A stretch of 32,795 bases of DNA from Mariprofundus sp. GTDB taxonomy: Bacteria; Pseudomonadota; Zetaproteobacteria; Mariprofundales; Mariprofundaceae. The notes under the pieces are model-generated. The model did not search any database. It was not told the DNA's origin and saw only the letters and a program-made list of their open reading frames with translations. Location: positions 1 to 32,795 of the forward strand of contig JAUZQJ010000089.1 in assembly GCA_030951045.1 (NCBI GenBank), read 5' to 3'. Made by a program: the position numbers and the translations under genes. Shown here piece by piece: positions 21,810 through 29,574 of this stretch (positions are counted from its first letter, which is position 1; each line of letters begins with the position of its first letter).

Positions 21810-23906
21810 TTAGCCCTGTTTAGAGGTGGAATGCATGACCTCATAGAGCGTGGTTTTTAGCGTTTTTGCTTTAAATGGTTTTTGCAAAAATGCATTAGGG
21901 CGATCGCCAGCGATAAGAGAGCCGGCTTCAACCTCTGAATAGCCGGAAACCAGTATGATGGGTACTTTGCTGTCAATTTCACGCATACCCGCCATGGCTT
22001 CGACCCCCCCGAGCACAGGCATGGTCATATCGAGGAGTACTGCTTCCAGATTAGTATGATGTTTGGCGAATGCTTCCAGACCTTCTTTGCCATCATCGGC
22101 GGTCATCACCGTAAAGTGCAAGCTTTCTATGAAAGCTTTGCCTACTTGGCGTACCCGCATATCGTCGTCGACAATGAGGACTTTACCATCTCCTTGCCAT
22201 GCATCGACTTCGACAGTACTGATCATGGTCGCTTTAAACTCTTGATCAGTAGATGGCAGATAGACACGAAACGCCGTGCCTCTACCCTCTGAACTATGCA
22301 CCTGAATGGCACCATGGTGACCGCGTACAATACCAAGTACTGCAGATAGGCCCAGACCACTACCGGTTTCTTTGGTGGTAAAGAAGGGGTCAAAAATCTT
22401 AGAAATCATCTCAAGACTCATACCGCAACCAGTATCAGAGACTTCGATAATGACGTATTGGCCTGGTTTCAGGCATGAGCCATTATACAGTTTATCCAGT
22501 ATCTGGCGGTCTATGTTGCGGGCACCAGTAGATACTTTGATTTCACCTGACTTGGGGCCAATGGCATCGGCAGAATTAACGATGAAGTTAAGGATCAGTT
22601 GTTGAATTTGGGCCATGTCGCCTTCAATGCCGGGCAGTGTTTTTGCCAGTTTTATTTTTAGCGCAATATGACTACTTACCGAGGCACGAATAAGCTTCCC
22701 AGTCGATTTTACCATCTCGTTAAGATCGAGAATATCGAGTTCATAACTACCTTTTCCGGCATATGCGAGCATCTGCTTACATAACTCCGCAGCGTGATCG
22801 CAGGCGTCGCTGATATTATCGATATGGGTAGTTGCCTCTGCTTCTTCATCCAGACTGCTGCGAGCCAATTCTGCATTGCCGGAAATGGCTGCCAGCAGGT
22901 TATTAAAATCGTGGGCTATGCCTCCAGCCAGCACGCCAAGCGATTCCAGTCGTTGCGCATGTTCGAGCCGATCACTGTGATCGTTGGATGATAGGGGCTG
23001 ATCGCTTGTGTGCTGCTGTGATTCTTCAGCGGTGACTACAAAGGCGGGCTCACCATCATAAATAACCGGGCTGGATTGAATCCTGGCAACGATAGTCTGG
23101 CCGTCTTTGCGAATGATTGTTTCATCAACAGCAGGGGCGGGGCGAGCATGTTTGATCATGTTGGCAATGCGTTCTTTTACCTTTTCCAGATCATCATCTT
23201 GAACATAATCGTAAATGGATGTGCCAATGACCTCCTCAGTACCACTAGCGCCGAACAAGTCGGCAGCAATCGGATTGCAATATACCCAGCGGTCATTGCA
23301 ATGCACAGCTAAGGCATGCGGTAGGCTATCGAGCAGGGTGCGGTGACTCATTTTGTTGTTTAATAGTACATGCTCTTCATGTTTGAGACGTGAAGTGGTG
23401 TCTAGGATGCGATGTTGACTATTTTCTTCGCGTTGTTCGCGCCAAGTAATGGTGTAAGCGGCGATCAGGCTGAAAGCAACATAAGCCAGGCTAATATAGG
23501 CTGCTTTTTGCCAAATGAGATCACCAATGGTGGCGCTTAAAATTGCGATAATCAGAGCGTAAATTACAGTCCATATCAGGCCAATACGGGAGCCTGCACT
23601 TAAGCAGGCGATAAATGGGAATCCAAAACTCCAGATGAAACCAATGCCACTAAAACCACCCTGTAAAAACAATAGAGAAAACAGGGTGGCGGCATGGATA
23701 ATGAACAGGTTTTGTTGCACAAAAAGCATTTCTACTTTTTTGGTCCATAGGTAGAGAGAGGCAAGTGAAGCCACCATGAGCAGTTCGATTTGCCCCAAGC
23801 TGTTGAAGCCCTGACTGAAATTAATGATGCTAAACATCAGCACAAATGGAATGGCAACCAGCAGGGAGAGCTGTAATGGATTCATGTGAAGAATAGTCTT
23901 TTTCAT
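21810..23906 (-). CDS. PAS-domain hybrid sensor histidine kinase with C-terminal receiver
   Basis: A 698-residue membrane kinase, counted from the chosen ATG. About six hydrophobic helices occupy residues 10-155. A PAS domain follows (about 187-295), then a dimerisation domain with phospho-accepting His332 in GGIAHDFNNLL. The ATPase domain has an N-box near Asn444 (FIVNSADAIG), G1 DTGCGM and G2 GSGLGLSAV. A receiver (about 575-698) has acidic VDDD, Asp626 and Lys676 in QKPF. The HxDFNN type H-box fits NtrB-like kinases. I chose ATG 23906 because a probable promoter places the transcript start after an earlier in-frame GTG at 23954; the GAGGG upstream is 13 nt away, so the start is uncertain. 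Signal unknown. Confidence 0.85.
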   Translation of the reverse strand: MKKTILHMNPLQLSLLVAIPFVLMFSIINFSQGFNSLGQIELLMVASLASLYLWTKKVEMLFVQQNLFIIHAATLFSLLFLQGGFSGIGFIWSFGFPFIACLSAGSRIGLIWTVIYALIIAILSATIGDLIWQKAAYISLAYVAFSLIAAYTITWREQREENSQHRILDTTSRLKHEEHVLLNNKMSHRTLLDSLPHALAVHCNDRWVYCNPIAADLFGASGTEEVIGTSIYDYVQDDDLEKVKERIANMIKHARPAPAVDETIIRKDGQTIVARIQSSPVIYDGEPAFVVTAEESQQHTSDQPLSSNDHSDRLEHAQRLESLGVLAGGIAHDFNNLLAAISGNAELARSSLDEEAEATTHIDNISDACDHAAELCKQMLAYAGKGSYELDILDLNEMVKSTGKLIRASVSSHIALKIKLAKTLPGIEGDMAQIQQLILNFIVNSADAIGPKSGEIKVSTGARNIDRQILDKLYNGSCLKPGQYVIIEVSDTGCGMSLEMISKIFDPFFTTKETGSGLGLSAVLGIVRGHHGAIQVHSSEGRGTAFRVYLPSTDQEFKATMISTVEVDAWQGDGKVLIVDDDMRVRQVGKAFIESLHFTVMTADDGKEGLEAFAKHHTNLEAVLLDMTMPVLGGVEAMAGMREIDSKVPIILVSGYSEVEAGSLIAGDRPNAFLQKPFKAKTLKTTLYEVMHSTSKQG

Positions 23907-23956
23907 GGCAGTAAAAGCACCCTCATATTTTAAAATACGCTTCTTAACTGTCACAT

Positions 23957-24081: not shown

Positions 24082-25167
24082 CTATTTGCACAGACTGATT
24101 AAGTGATCTCCGAGCGCGTTGAGTGCCACCTCTTCTTCAGCGGCGCCTATTTTTACGGCTGCACCGGGCATACCCCATACGACGGAACTGGCTTTATCTT
24201 GTGCTACAGTTCGGGCACTGGACTGTAGCATTTTTTTCAGACCGGAGGCTCCGTCTTCACCCATGCCGGTCATCAATGCGCCAATTGCTTTTGAGCCTGC
24301 ATGTTTGGCAACCGAATTGAATAGCATATCCACCGATGGACAATGGCTATTAATGGGATCCTTACCGCCAACATGACAAATATAACCCTGGCCATTGCGC
24401 TCGATGGTGAAATGTTCATCGCCGGCACCGACATAAATAAACCCCTTGCAGATTTCCATGCCTTCTTCAGCAGATACCACATGCATCGGTGAAGATTGAT
24501 CCAGCCTATCAATAAATGATGCAGAAAAACTTGTGGGAATATGCTGCACAAGTACTACTGCCCCTGTATCAGCAGGGAATTTGGCAATGACGTGGCGGAG
24601 TGCTTCTGTGCCGCCTGTTGAGGCTCCAAGCGCAATCAATTTATCCTGTGTGGGATGGTGTCGAACCGTTGTGGCTATATTTTTTTCGCTGCTTGAGAGG
24701 GGCATCTTTGCAGGCTGTTCTATGGCAATGCGTGTCTTTACTGCGGGTCCATATTTTTGTATGAATTGTTGCGAAACACGTTGAATTCGCCGAGTTAACT
24801 TGTTAAAAAAAGTTGTCTGCTGGGTCGTAGTTTCAAGTGAGGGTTTTACCATCATTGTGGCAATGCAGGAGCTGATTGCATTCAAGTAGGCACTGGACTT
24901 GGGCAATGCATCACTGGTCACAATCACCATAGCCAGTGATTTTTCTTCCGTCATCTGCATTAAAAATGTAGTGATGGCATCGCTGTTTTGATTAACCCCT
25001 AATACCAATACATCAGGTTTACGAATTTTTACCTGCATACGTGCCTGCATTACATCAGAGGCGATACCGTTCACGTTAATGCCGACTTGTTTGTTGAGCG
25101 CATGAACCATGGCCAGACGCGCTTTCGGAGCGCCTTCCACTACAACGACGTTTAATTTTGAAATCAT
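24082..25167 (-). CDS. cheB: CheB-type protein-glutamate methylesterase with degenerate receiver
   Basis: A 361-residue protein with the CheB layout: receiver-like domain (1-115), linker (115-170) and methylesterase domain (172-361). The catalytic triad is intact: Ser183 in GASTGGTEAL, His209 in VQHIP, Asp305 in MGEDGASG. The receiver has lost its acidic pocket (Glu11-Gly12 where Asp-Asp or Glu-Asp is normal) and its phosphorylation site (Gly57 in PDVLVLGV, normally Asp), while the lysine (Lys108 in VKPS) remains. It therefore should not be switched on by phosphorylation in the normal way. CheB demethylates and deamidates chemoreceptors; no cheR, cheA or receptor gene is in the window. It follows a stand-alone receiver gene by 51 nt. 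The ATG has GGTGAA upstream. Confidence 0.88.
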   Translation of the reverse strand: MISKLNVVVVEGAPKARLAMVHALNKQVGINVNGIASDVMQARMQVKIRKPDVLVLGVNQNSDAITTFLMQMTEEKSLAMVIVTSDALPKSSAYLNAISSCIATMMVKPSLETTTQQTTFFNKLTRRIQRVSQQFIQKYGPAVKTRIAIEQPAKMPLSSSEKNIATTVRHHPTQDKLIALGASTGGTEALRHVIAKFPADTGAVVLVQHIPTSFSASFIDRLDQSSPMHVVSAEEGMEICKGFIYVGAGDEHFTIERNGQGYICHVGGKDPINSHCPSVDMLFNSVAKHAGSKAIGALMTGMGEDGASGLKKMLQSSARTVAQDKASSVVWGMPGAAVKIGAAEEEVALNALGDHLISLCK

Positions 25168-25218: not shown

Positions 25219-25620
25219 TCATGTGAGATCAAATTCCATGACGCAGCTTAGTTTGTTGCGCAACTGAGGGAATTGAATGGGCTTGGTTACAAAATCAGAA
25301 GCCATCACCGCGATAGCACAATCTATTGCTGCCTTCCCTTCCAAAGCTGTGATCATAAATATCGGCAGTTCCTCACCTCCGGGCAATGTGCGAATGACTT
25401 CGCAAGCAGCAAAGCCATCCATTACCGGCATATCACCATCCAGCATGATCATTGCCGGATGCTGTTGTTCAAATATTTCCACGGCCTGTTCACCATCGCC
25501 AACAGTGATTACTACATAACCATTGGCTTGAAAAAATTGAGTCAGCATGACACAAAACATTGGATCATCATCTGCAACCAGTACAGTTGCTCCTTTTTCT
25601 ATCAAACTCATATCATTCAT
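25219..25620 (-). CDS. Stand-alone response regulator receiver (CheY-like)
   Basis: A 133-residue single-domain receiver with no output domain. The acidic pocket ADDDP (Asp17-Asp19), phospho-acceptor Asp61 in MIMLDGDMPVMDG, switch residue Thr91 (MITALEG) and Lys113 (VTKPIQF) are all present, so it should be phosphorylatable. ATG 25620 is preceded by AAAAGGTG and gives a start just before the first beta strand. The frame runs 63 codons further into the hybrid kinase coding region, which is a shadow. It begins 31 nt after the hybrid kinase stop and is the obvious local target of that kinase's HPt domain, or a phosphate sink. Confidence 0.9.
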   Translation of the reverse strand: MNDMSLIEKGATVLVADDDPMFCVMLTQFFQANGYVVITVGDGEQAVEIFEQQHPAMIMLDGDMPVMDGFAACEVIRTLPGGEELPIFMITALEGKAAIDCAIAVMASDFVTKPIQFPQLRNKLSCVMEFDLT

Positions 25621-25651: not shown

Positions 25652-28600
25652 CTAGCGGATTTCGGATAACCAGTTGGCGGCGAGGGCCTCTTGCACCTGT
25701 TCTGCCGCTTGTTTGAATTCGTTGAATAAACGTGCGGCGGCTTTGATGTCGTTGTTTTGGCCAAACTGTTCGAGCTGAAAACAGAGCTCACCCAATGTCG
25801 CGGCAGCAATGGAACGACTGGCGCCTTTTAAACGGTGTCCATTACGGCGCAGTGTATCGCCATCAGCAGCAGCAATAGCGGCTTCAATTGCTTCGATCTG
25901 TTTAGGCAGTTCGGATAAATAGGTGTCGAGAATCATGCCGATACCAAAACCCATATCCGTTTGTAGTTGGCGCAGTGCAGCTTCATCTACGACGGCTAGA
26001 GCAGGTTCTTCGTTATGTTGTTCTTCCTCTATGGTTACGCTATTGGGTTGGGAGTCAGCTTGTGTTTGCGAGGGCAACCATTCGGCCATTACCCCTTTTA
26101 GTGCTTTGCCGGTGAGTGGCTTGGTCAGGTGAGCATTCATGCCTGCATCCCGGGTGCGCTGCATATTCGTATCGAGTGCATGTGCTGTCAGTGCGATAAT
26201 CGGAATCTGTTGTGCGTTTTCACTGAACTGTTCCAGCTCTCGTATTTCACGGGTGGCAGCAATGCCATCCAGATCTGGCATCTGCACGTCCATCAAAATC
26301 AAATCATATTCATGTTCGGCATACAGGGTCAGTGCTTCCAGGCCATTGTGTGCCACATCTACATTGGCAAAGCCTTGGTTCTTCAACATGCCCACGGCCA
26401 CTTGCTCATTCACGGCATTATCTTCAGCCAGCAGGATGCGTTCATCGCGATGAATAACACCAATCTCTGTATCACTACGAATGATCCGCTTTCTGACTCC
26501 CATCACATCCAGCACTGTTTCGCACAGCGAATGTACATAAATGGGCTTACGCATAAAACCATTCAGCCCATATTTTTGGCGCAATGCATTATCAAACGTA
26601 AAATCCAGTGATGTGGTCATGATAACTTTCAAGTCGGAAAGTTCAGGTGTTTCCTTAATCACACGTGCCAGCGTCATGCCATCCATGCCTTGCATTTGAT
26701 GATCTATAAATATCATATCATAGGCAGTAGATTGTCTGGTCATCTCTAGCAAGCGTTGTTTGGTATCTTCTCCGCTGCTGCACATATCACAACTCGCGCC
26801 CCAACCTGCCAACAGGCCATGCAATATGTCGCGATTGGTCGCATTGTCATCGACCACCAAGGCCCGCCACTGTGAAAATTCATCACTATATTGATGGGGT
26901 CCCGCTGCAATGGGAGCGGATTTCTTTAGCTTGAGATCGAAGTAAAAGCATGAGCCTTTGCCGATCTCACTTTTCACCGCAATGTCACCACCCATCATGG
27001 ATACCAATCGCTTCACAATAGCCAGTCCCAGACCTGTGCCGCCATGTTTACGTGTATCGGTTCCATCAGCCTGGGTGAACTCTTCAAACAGGCGCGCCTG
27101 ATCTTTAACGGAAATACCTCTGCCCGTATCGGCAACCTGAAAGCGGACAATCACCTGTAAATCGTTTTCTGACTGCAAATCGACAGCAATCAAAACCTCG
27201 CCCTGTTGGGTAAACTTAATGGCATTAGATACCAAATTTAACATCACTTGATGTAAGCGATCTGAATCGCCTATTACTACATTTTTTACCACAGGGATGC
27301 CTCTGGCAATCAACTCCAGAGTGTTTTCATTTTGATTAACTTGTGAGGAAAATAGTTGGACAACATCTTCAATCACGTGATTAGGATTAAATTCGATTGC
27401 TTTCACCTCCATTTGACCGGCTTCAATTTTGGAGAAATCGAGAATGTCGTTCAGAATCGTTAATAGAGCTTTGCCGCTGGATTGTATCACTTCCATGCGT
27501 TTGCGCTGTGCCGGATACATTTTCGACGAAAGCACCAGCTCAGTTAACCCCAAGACCCCATTTAACGGTGTGCGGATCTCATGGCTCATGGTGGCCAGAA
27601 ACTGACTTTTGGCCAAAGCAGCCTGTTCGGCATTGATCAAAGCCTTTTCCAGTTGATTGTTCTGGCTTTCCAGCTCTTCTGCCAGTTTGGCTAATTGTGC
27701 AGTACGGTTATTTACTTTCACTTCCAGTGCAACGTTCAGGGCTTCTGTTTTTTGACGCGATTCTCTTAAATGCGTTACCATCTGTTGCAGAGCATGGCTT
27801 AATAAACCTATTTCATCTTTGCCTGTGTTCGGCATAGGTACGTCTTTTTCGCCTTCACTGATTTTGACTGCAACATCGATCATCTTACGCACAGGGCGGG
27901 TTAAATAGCGCGCCCAATAATATGTGACCACGCCTAGAAAAATGGCCAGCAACAGGGTGAGCCACAGCATTCTGTCGCGCAATGCAAGTGATTGTTGGCG
28001 TAACTGATGCAGTGTGAATGTACCTCCTATATGCAAAAAACGATCGGGGTGGCTCTGATCAAGGAGTACTTTGCCGAGTATTAATATAAGCCCCGAATCA
28101 TCTAACAGATATTGATCAATACTGTTCGATGTATGCTTGTTGTTTTGTAAAAGCGCACCTTCAATATGAAAGTCCTGCTGCAAAGTGGTCTGCTGTCCGA
28201 GTTCAAAAGCCATGTTCTTGTGTGCATCAGGATGTACGATGTAATCACCATGCGCATTGGCAATAAAATAGTGTTGCTGATCATCGCTGTGCTCGACATG
28301 AGTCAAAACAGATTGTGCCAGTAGGTTGAAATCAACATTGATCAGCAAAATGCCATAGATTGCGCCATTATCATCAAATAGCGCTGTTGAAACGCGCAAC
28401 ACCGGTTGCGGCGGTAGGGTAATGACACCATGTTCTCGATTTAGGGTGATATCGGAAAAGCGAAACTTGCCCGGTTTGAGTTTGATGGATGCCTGGAAAT
28501 AATCCCACTTATTTTTTTTCATTAACTTACTGTTGGCAATGACTGTAATACCGTGTGCCAAACGAGCTACCCGCGCTAGCTCATGTCCATCGTTGGCCAC

Positions 28601-28948
28601 ACCAATTAAACGTACCTGAGAATACATTTTGTGTTGCACCAGCAGATTGGAAAAAAGCTTTTCCAAATGCCTGATATCTGTCTGAATAGAAAGACCTTTG
28701 GCGAATCTTTGAGCCAGTGATTGCACGGGCTGAGATTGGGATAAAAAGGCCACATCTGATCTTACCATCTCTGCATTGGAACTTAATAAATCGGATTCTT
28801 CTTGTACCTGCATGGATAAGCTATTAATGGCTTCTTGCTGCAATAACTGATCAGATTCGAGATAGGCCATCATGGCTACGCCAAGCACACCAAACAGGGT
28901 GATAATAAATGACATTGATGCAAACTTTACTGGTAATGATAATTGCAT
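25652..28948 (-). CDS. BarA-like hybrid sensor kinase: Cache sensor, HAMP, kinase, two receivers, HPt
   Basis: A 1,098-residue inner-membrane multi-step relay kinase. Transmembrane helix 1 (about 8-30) and helix 2 (about 328-348) flank a periplasmic sensor of about 295 residues that resembles a double Cache domain (INVDFNLL, ANAHGDYIVHP). Then come HAMP (about 349-402), a coiled coil (400-445) and a dimerisation domain with His456 (SHEIRTPLNG). The ATPase domain has N-box NLVSNAIKFT, DTGRGI and GGTGLGLAIV. Receiver 1 has Asp749, receiver 2 has Asp887, and the HPt domain has His1038 (NGHRLKGASRS). All phosphorelay residues are intact. The nearest known layouts are BarA, ArcB and TodS-like kinases. 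The receiver and cheB genes follow, probably in one operon. The ligand is unknown. Confidence 0.9.
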   Translation of the reverse strand: MQLSLPVKFASMSFIITLFGVLGVAMMAYLESDQLLQQEAINSLSMQVQEESDLLSSNAEMVRSDVAFLSQSQPVQSLAQRFAKGLSIQTDIRHLEKLFSNLLVQHKMYSQVRLIGVANDGHELARVARLAHGITVIANSKLMKKNKWDYFQASIKLKPGKFRFSDITLNREHGVITLPPQPVLRVSTALFDDNGAIYGILLINVDFNLLAQSVLTHVEHSDDQQHYFIANAHGDYIVHPDAHKNMAFELGQQTTLQQDFHIEGALLQNNKHTSNSIDQYLLDDSGLILILGKVLLDQSHPDRFLHIGGTFTLHQLRQQSLALRDRMLWLTLLLAIFLGVVTYYWARYLTRPVRKMIDVAVKISEGEKDVPMPNTGKDEIGLLSHALQQMVTHLRESRQKTEALNVALEVKVNNRTAQLAKLAEELESQNNQLEKALINAEQAALAKSQFLATMSHEIRTPLNGVLGLTELVLSSKMYPAQRKRMEVIQSSGKALLTILNDILDFSKIEAGQMEVKAIEFNPNHVIEDVVQLFSSQVNQNENTLELIARGIPVVKNVVIGDSDRLHQVMLNLVSNAIKFTQQGEVLIAVDLQSENDLQVIVRFQVADTGRGISVKDQARLFEEFTQADGTDTRKHGGTGLGLAIVKRLVSMMGGDIAVKSEIGKGSCFYFDLKLKKSAPIAAGPHQYSDEFSQWRALVVDDNATNRDILHGLLAGWGASCDMCSSGEDTKQRLLEMTRQSTAYDMIFIDHQMQGMDGMTLARVIKETPELSDLKVIMTTSLDFTFDNALRQKYGLNGFMRKPIYVHSLCETVLDVMGVRKRIIRSDTEIGVIHRDERILLAEDNAVNEQVAVGMLKNQGFANVDVAHNGLEALTLYAEHEYDLILMDVQMPDLDGIAATREIRELEQFSENAQQIPIIALTAHALDTNMQRTRDAGMNAHLTKPLTGKALKGVMAEWLPSQTQADSQPNSVTIEEEQHNEEPALAVVDEAALRQLQTDMGFGIGMILDTYLSELPKQIEAIEAAIAAADGDTLRRNGHRLKGASRSIAAATLGELCFQLEQFGQNNDIKAAARLFNEFKQAAEQVQEALAANWLSEIR

Positions 28949-29149: not shown

Positions 29150-29509
29150 TTATGTGGTTAATTCGATGGTGTTACCATCTGGATCACGACAAAAGAGTGC
29201 GTTCCGACCGGATTTACTCATGGTATATGGTACATCCATCGTATCTAGCTTACTGGCGATCAATTTGAGATCATCAGTTTGCATGGCGACATGATTGTCT
29301 CGTCCGCCGTGCAAAGGTTTAGGGCAATTTTCATAAGGGTTATCGAGCAGCATAAGGTGAATTTGTTGGCCACCATCAAGGCCATACCATAGGCCATCAA
29401 AAGCAAGCGCGGCAGGGCGCTCAAGGCGTTGTAGATCGAACACCTGTTCGTAAAAGTGGGCGGCTCTGTTGAGGTCACTTACCAATAATGCAATATGTAC
29501 AATCTTCAT
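29150..29509 (-). CDS. VOC (glyoxalase/dioxygenase fold) family protein
   Basis: A 119-residue small cytosolic protein of the vicinal-oxygen-chelate superfamily. Two beta-alpha-beta-beta-beta units are visible: residues 1-55 starting MKIVHIALLVSDLNRAAHFYE, and 72-119 starting NHVAMQTDD. The likely metal ligands are His5, His51, His73 and Glu116 (FCRDPDGNTIEL), a set seen in dioxygenase-like or FosX-like members rather than classical glyoxalase I, which normally has Glu at the second position. The substrate cannot be named. ATG 29509 has GGGAG upstream; an 18-codon extension lacks family features. It is divergent from folD across 65 nt. Confidence 0.8.
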   Translation of the reverse strand: MKIVHIALLVSDLNRAAHFYEQVFDLQRLERPAALAFDGLWYGLDGGQQIHLMLLDNPYENCPKPLHGGRDNHVAMQTDDLKLIASKLDTMDVPYTMSKSGRNALFCRDPDGNTIELTT

Positions 29510-29574
29510 GTTTTCTCCCATAGCCAAGCTTATGATTGTCTGAACAGGCCGATACTGCAACAATGCGCAGTCAT

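Follow-up and report, generated by a model that had tools for sequence, protein, structure and literature searches.

A CheB-type methylesterase of Mariprofundus with a conserved pseudo-receiver, a candidate split response regulator

Introduction

CheB methylesterases normally reset chemical sensors. In ordinary members of the family, the regulatory domain covers the active site until phosphorylation exposes it (PMC8609364). Deletion of this domain activates the enzyme, but less than phosphorylation does (PMC8609364). Salmonella CheB (PDB 1A2O; PRK12555, PRK00742) shares its two-domain order and catalytic triad with the protein described here. Unlike the Salmonella enzyme, this protein has neither the phospho-acceptor Asp nor the acidic pair, is encoded outside a che operon, and is paired with a kinase and a receiver of its own. 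Among the closest ordinary CheB proteins in the same species are the zetaproteobacterial operon enzymes (L021-L025 and their relatives), which are ~36% identical to it. These differ in having an intact receiver and a location with CheR, a CheD-like protein, MCPs and CheW.

Aspartate-less receivers, or pseudo-receivers, keep the receiver fold without the key Asp (PMC4395418; PMC12632262), as does the protein considered here. How bacterial pseudo-receivers switch has been described as a mystery in a 2025 review, according to which the alpha1-beta2-alpha2 surface is likely to have acquired new importance (PMC12632262). In the WhiI/BldM and CmrR/CmrT systems an atypical receiver is thought to work or heterodimerise with another response regulator (PMC12632262), an arrangement like the one proposed below. 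Those proteins are gene regulators; the present system has an enzyme as output and, as candidate partner, a stand-alone receiver that lacks an output domain. CheB or methylesterase outputs go unmentioned in the main texts of PMC4395418 and PMC12632262, and a literature search of open-licence papers found no description of a CheB with a pseudo-receiver.

The window, the whole 32,795-nucleotide stretch analysed, is contig C153 of a Mariprofundus sp. genome (2.26 Mb, 164 contigs, 86.9% complete). Its features are listed in table 1.

Table 1. Coordinates of the module, its parts and a neighbouring kinase gene in the window.
Feature	Position	Strand	Details	Basis
PAS hybrid kinase, downstream	21810..23954	minus	weak MASE6-PAS-HisKA-HATPase-REC; not constant	
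CheB-type methylesterase with pseudo-receiver (P0001)	24082..25167	minus	361 aa	ORF, Pfam, 1A2O alignment
Catalytic methylesterase domain	24085..24651	minus	residues 173-361; Ser183/His209/Asp305; strongly constrained	
Interdomain linker	24652..24822	minus	residues 116-172; fast-evolving	
Pseudo-receiver	24823..25167	minus	residues 1-115; phosphorylation face eroded, beta2-alpha2 side retained	
Codon 57	24997..24999	minus	Gly replacing phospho-acceptor Asp	alignment; coordinates computed from ORF start
Codons 11-12	25132..25137	minus	Glu-Gly replacing acidic pair	alignment; coordinates computed from ORF start
Stand-alone receiver	25219..25620	minus	133 aa; ATG at 25620; acidic pair, Asp, Thr and Lys intact	
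Hybrid histidine kinase	25652..28948	minus	presumed phosphodonor	domain scan

Domain structure and key residues

The cheB frame runs from 25167 to 24082; the plus strand across this interval is riddled with stops. In a single-sequence Pfam scan, CheB_methylest matches residues 178-355 with 182.6 bits, and Response_reg gives no match at E<=0.001. Profile-profile comparison nevertheless recovers a receiver fold (99.1%, 128 columns). The Salmonella structure 1A2O aligns over residues 3-357 (E 2.6e-56). In this alignment G57 stands against the Salmonella phospho-acceptor Asp and 'VEG' against 'VDD', and the active-site motifs are kept. The residues read are E11, G12, G57, K108, S183, H209 and D305. 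A sequence-only reading had named the same triad and the same replacements at 11-12 and 57, and the alignments confirm its numbering. Because Asp57 and the acidic pair are replaced, the protein's own phospho-switch cannot work at the usual site.

The protein belongs to CheB by its triad-bearing CheB_methylest domain and N-terminal receiver fold; a phosphorylatable receiver and a che-gene neighbourhood are lacking. It scores below both NCBIfam cut-offs (285.5 versus 342 bits and 264 versus 293 bits). The N-terminal domain is a pseudo-receiver in that it has the fold without the phospho-acceptor Asp, a loss common to its orthologues. A structure prediction from three sequences had a mean pLDDT of 42.4, too poor for interface analysis.

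Loss of Asp57 as a lineage trait

Pseudo-receiver CheB occurs in ten genomes of two genera of marine iron oxidisers, according to searches of the genus and of the class (Zetaproteobacteria). Full-length orthologues are 39-90% identical to the window protein, the 90% being that of Mariprofundus sp. EBB-1, the closest named relative. At residue 57 the window protein and seven orthologues carry G, G, A, G, A, S, A, S, and a ninth member, with its gene split across contigs, carries S. In G039, the tenth holder, a contig end falls inside cheB; no receiver is readable there, and this genome is excluded from the count. All nine readable members, across both genera, thus have G, A or S in place of Asp57. 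Every further CheB in the class alignment that can be read at this position has D. Beyond the class, 398 genomes of the phylum gave best matches of at most 39% identity, and those whose receiver could be read are ordinary, with D at position 57. A scan of viral contigs found no further relatives.

In a tree built on catalytic-domain columns only, the pseudo-receiver CheB lineage forms one clade (100/100). The sequence-only reading had proposed a receiver alignment with an orthologue tree as a check, and had taken Asp57 in close orthologues as the sign of an error or recent mutation. No readable orthologue has this Asp, and the receiver fold is kept. Sequencing error or recent mutation at residue 57 is ruled out by a loss common to nine members. 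A shifted acceptor, an Asp at 58-59, was also considered; it occurs in orthologues L004, L005, L006 and L008 and is absent from the window and EBB-1 proteins. The second residue of the acidic pair is missing from every readable member, and the catalytic triad is kept in every clade member compared. Lys108, earlier said to remain, does so in the window protein but is not invariant: it is K in five of eight members, and R, E or lost in the others.

The two halves of the protein have evolved differently. Against EBB-1, dN/dS is 0.38 for the receiver and 0.40 for the linker, versus 0.068 for the catalytic domain and 0.073 for the stand-alone receiver. Among diverged members, catalytic-domain conservation is 0.64 in the clade versus 0.65 in ordinary sister CheB, whereas from beta3-alpha3 through beta5 of the receiver it is 0.18-0.33 versus 0.77-1.00. 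The eroded elements are beta3-alpha3, beta4, alpha4 and beta5; beta2 and alpha2 hold at 0.61 and 0.57. Mean between-species identity is 0.69 for the stand-alone receiver, 0.66 for the catalytic domain, 0.54 for the kinase core and 0.37 for the pseudo-receiver. By these comparisons, the pseudo-receiver has kept its fold and lost its phosphorylation face, and one side looks retained. That beta2-alpha2 side could be a docking face. A receiver dN/dS like that of the linker also fits drift under relaxed constraint.

The receiver-CheB-kinase module

Upstream of cheB lie the stand-alone receiver and then the hybrid kinase. Receiver and cheB adjoin in every orthologous locus whose contig extends far enough. 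The stand-alone receiver is found in 9 of 78 Zetaproteobacteria genomes, each of which holds pseudo-receiver CheB beside it (Fisher test for co-occurrence, 5e-11, with shared ancestry uncorrected). Genome G012 has one further, weaker match, within a larger open frame. Distance-matrix correlations do not single out the pair: those between parts of CheB and the stand-alone receiver do not exceed the level that general co-inheritance would produce. A receiver 41% identical to the stand-alone one was observed in G012 in a cluster of hybrid-kinase and response-regulator genes (L109:1-5001), and the partner receiver may have come from there.

The window kinase has the order sensor (HK_sensor_dom_bact, weak dCache)-HAMP-HisKA-HATPase-REC-REC-Hpt. 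Whatever the sensor, Hpt forms the C-terminal end in all seven modules scanned. Most Mariprofundus kinases have a sensor of the HK_sensor/dCache type with HAMP; elsewhere it is SBP_bac_3 with PAS (G018) or NMT1 (G032). The start of the G038 kinase resembles that of G032, and both genomes have a divergent kinase gene. Several distinct genomic contexts surround the module in different genome groups, so that it has either moved or been inherited as a unit. Kinase sensors are exchanged and the location changes, and the receiver-CheB pair stays. By domains and residues the locus has the parts of a multistep phosphorelay, namely a hybrid kinase with REC and Hpt and a separate intact receiver. Across the loci compared, CheR, CheA and MCP genes are not among the module's constant members.

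Chemotaxis genes

The sequence-only reading had placed CheB away from any visible chemotaxis operon. This holds for the window, but in G002 the orthologous module adjoins a gene for an 837-aa, PAS-containing MCP (L035:14668-17178), divergent from the module kinase. No other module was seen next to a chemoreceptor gene.

CheR gave no match in the window genome, of which 86.9% is represented. Two MCP-domain matches were found there, one of them below the cut-off, and few in EBB-1; a PilJ/ChpA-like cluster is present. When the CheA-CheW-CheB-CheR operon of EBB-1 was compared with the window genome, the one short match fell in an MCP gene, and its 7.3 kb flank gave short scattered matches only. 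Contig C55 of the window genome breaks off within a repeat-rich gene located after an MCP gene, and the EBB-1 counterpart likewise ends at a contig edge. The missing CheR and che operon are probably an assembly gap, because in G041 the same gene order continues from the repeat-rich gene into cheA-cheW-cheB-cheR. Loss of the whole chemotaxis system would be an unsafe conclusion, given the completeness and the fact that the gene preceding the operon runs into a contig end. In Zetaproteobacteria (L078:3173-8604, L079:3433-8729, L086:8921-19900) an MCP gene is followed by one for a long protein with Glu-rich repeats. This repeat gene lies upstream of cheY-cheA-cheW-cheY-cheB-cheR, and assemblies are interrupted in the repeats, which can mimic absence of the operon.

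Proposed mechanism and alternatives

The pseudo-receiver CheB trait is real and conserved and, as far as sequence comparison goes, is best read as a split regulator. An intact switch protein that is always present, with a sensor kinase, beside CheB suggests that the switch has moved to a partner protein. We give about even chances to a phosphorelay of three genes that ends in a CheB-type esterase, the phosphorylation site of which has been handed to the partner receiver. The following steps would be expected. (i) The hybrid kinase would autophosphorylate and, to judge from its domains, pass phosphate His-Asp-His to the C-terminal Hpt. (ii) Hpt would phosphorylate the adjoining stand-alone receiver, as their constant adjacency suggests. 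(iii) The phosphorylated receiver may then bind CheB, perhaps via the retained beta2-alpha2 side. (iv) Binding might move the pseudo-receiver away from the active site or over it, so that the domain would act in docking and occlusion and not as a phospho-switch. (v) The esterase would act on a chemoreceptor-type substrate, by demethylation or deamidation, with a non-CheA signal in control. The stand-alone receiver is the natural candidate to act in trans, since it is intact and as conserved as the esterase domain. The fuller proposal is more tentative and falls somewhat short of even: that phosphorylation site and enzyme reside in two obligate partners, that the former receiver is a docking module, and that a non-CheA kinase sets receptor methylation. 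If true, it would give non-chemotaxis signals a route to receptor methylation. The module offers a clean test case for pseudo-receiver switching, with a measurable enzyme output, one small neighbouring candidate partner and natural sensor variants.

The sequence-only reading had left the enzyme either constitutively active or under the control of a partner, for example the adjacent receiver. Partner control is favoured because that receiver is intact, conserved like the catalytic domain and confined to genomes with an adjoining pseudo-receiver CheB. A constitutive esterase, having lost both autoinhibition and phosphorylation and holding methylation constantly low while kinase and receiver act elsewhere or control expression, would account for the fast-evolving receiver and linker and the eroded phosphorylation face. 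It also agrees with the activation that follows deletion of the regulatory domain. The domain is nevertheless present in 9/9 readable members, with its fold kept, its beta2-alpha2 side constrained and dN/dS below 1, and the strict link to an intact stand-alone receiver would be left unexplained; we consider constitutive activity improbable. Unlikely too, if a little less so, is that kinase and receiver serve a parallel output: the receiver would act elsewhere, for example on the motor or a c-di-GMP enzyme, and the co-transcribed CheB would be regulated through different contacts, for instance binding to a receptor. Contact cannot be deduced from gene order alone, and the class's next closest receiver is encoded in a cluster with hybrid-kinase and larger response-regulator genes (L103, L109). 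Against this, no other constant partner occurs in the neighbourhood, and in 78 genomes the stand-alone receiver is never found without pseudo-receiver CheB.

The substrate might instead have changed, the esterase acting on another methylated or amidated protein and no longer on chemoreceptors. The module's lack of CheR, CheW and CheA, the failure to find CheR in the window genome and the few MCP domains there and in EBB-1 all point this way. Yet the catalytic residues and their surrounding motifs are those of an ordinary CheB, the absence of CheR is probably an assembly effect, and the G002 module adjoins an MCP gene. This is the least probable of the three alternatives.

Genes flanking the module

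The downstream PAS hybrid kinase adjoins the module in the window and in EBB-1, and may feed the same pathway. In G019 a PAS hybrid kinase (L034:14671-17193) is also found beside the module, ~42% identical over 376 residues to the window one; the two lie on different sides of the module and in different orientations. Between a glyoxalase-like gene and folD, EBB-1 has a 303-residue ORF (L039:14822-15730) that is absent in the window (29150-29563). Its N-terminus is like that of a ROK-type kinase.
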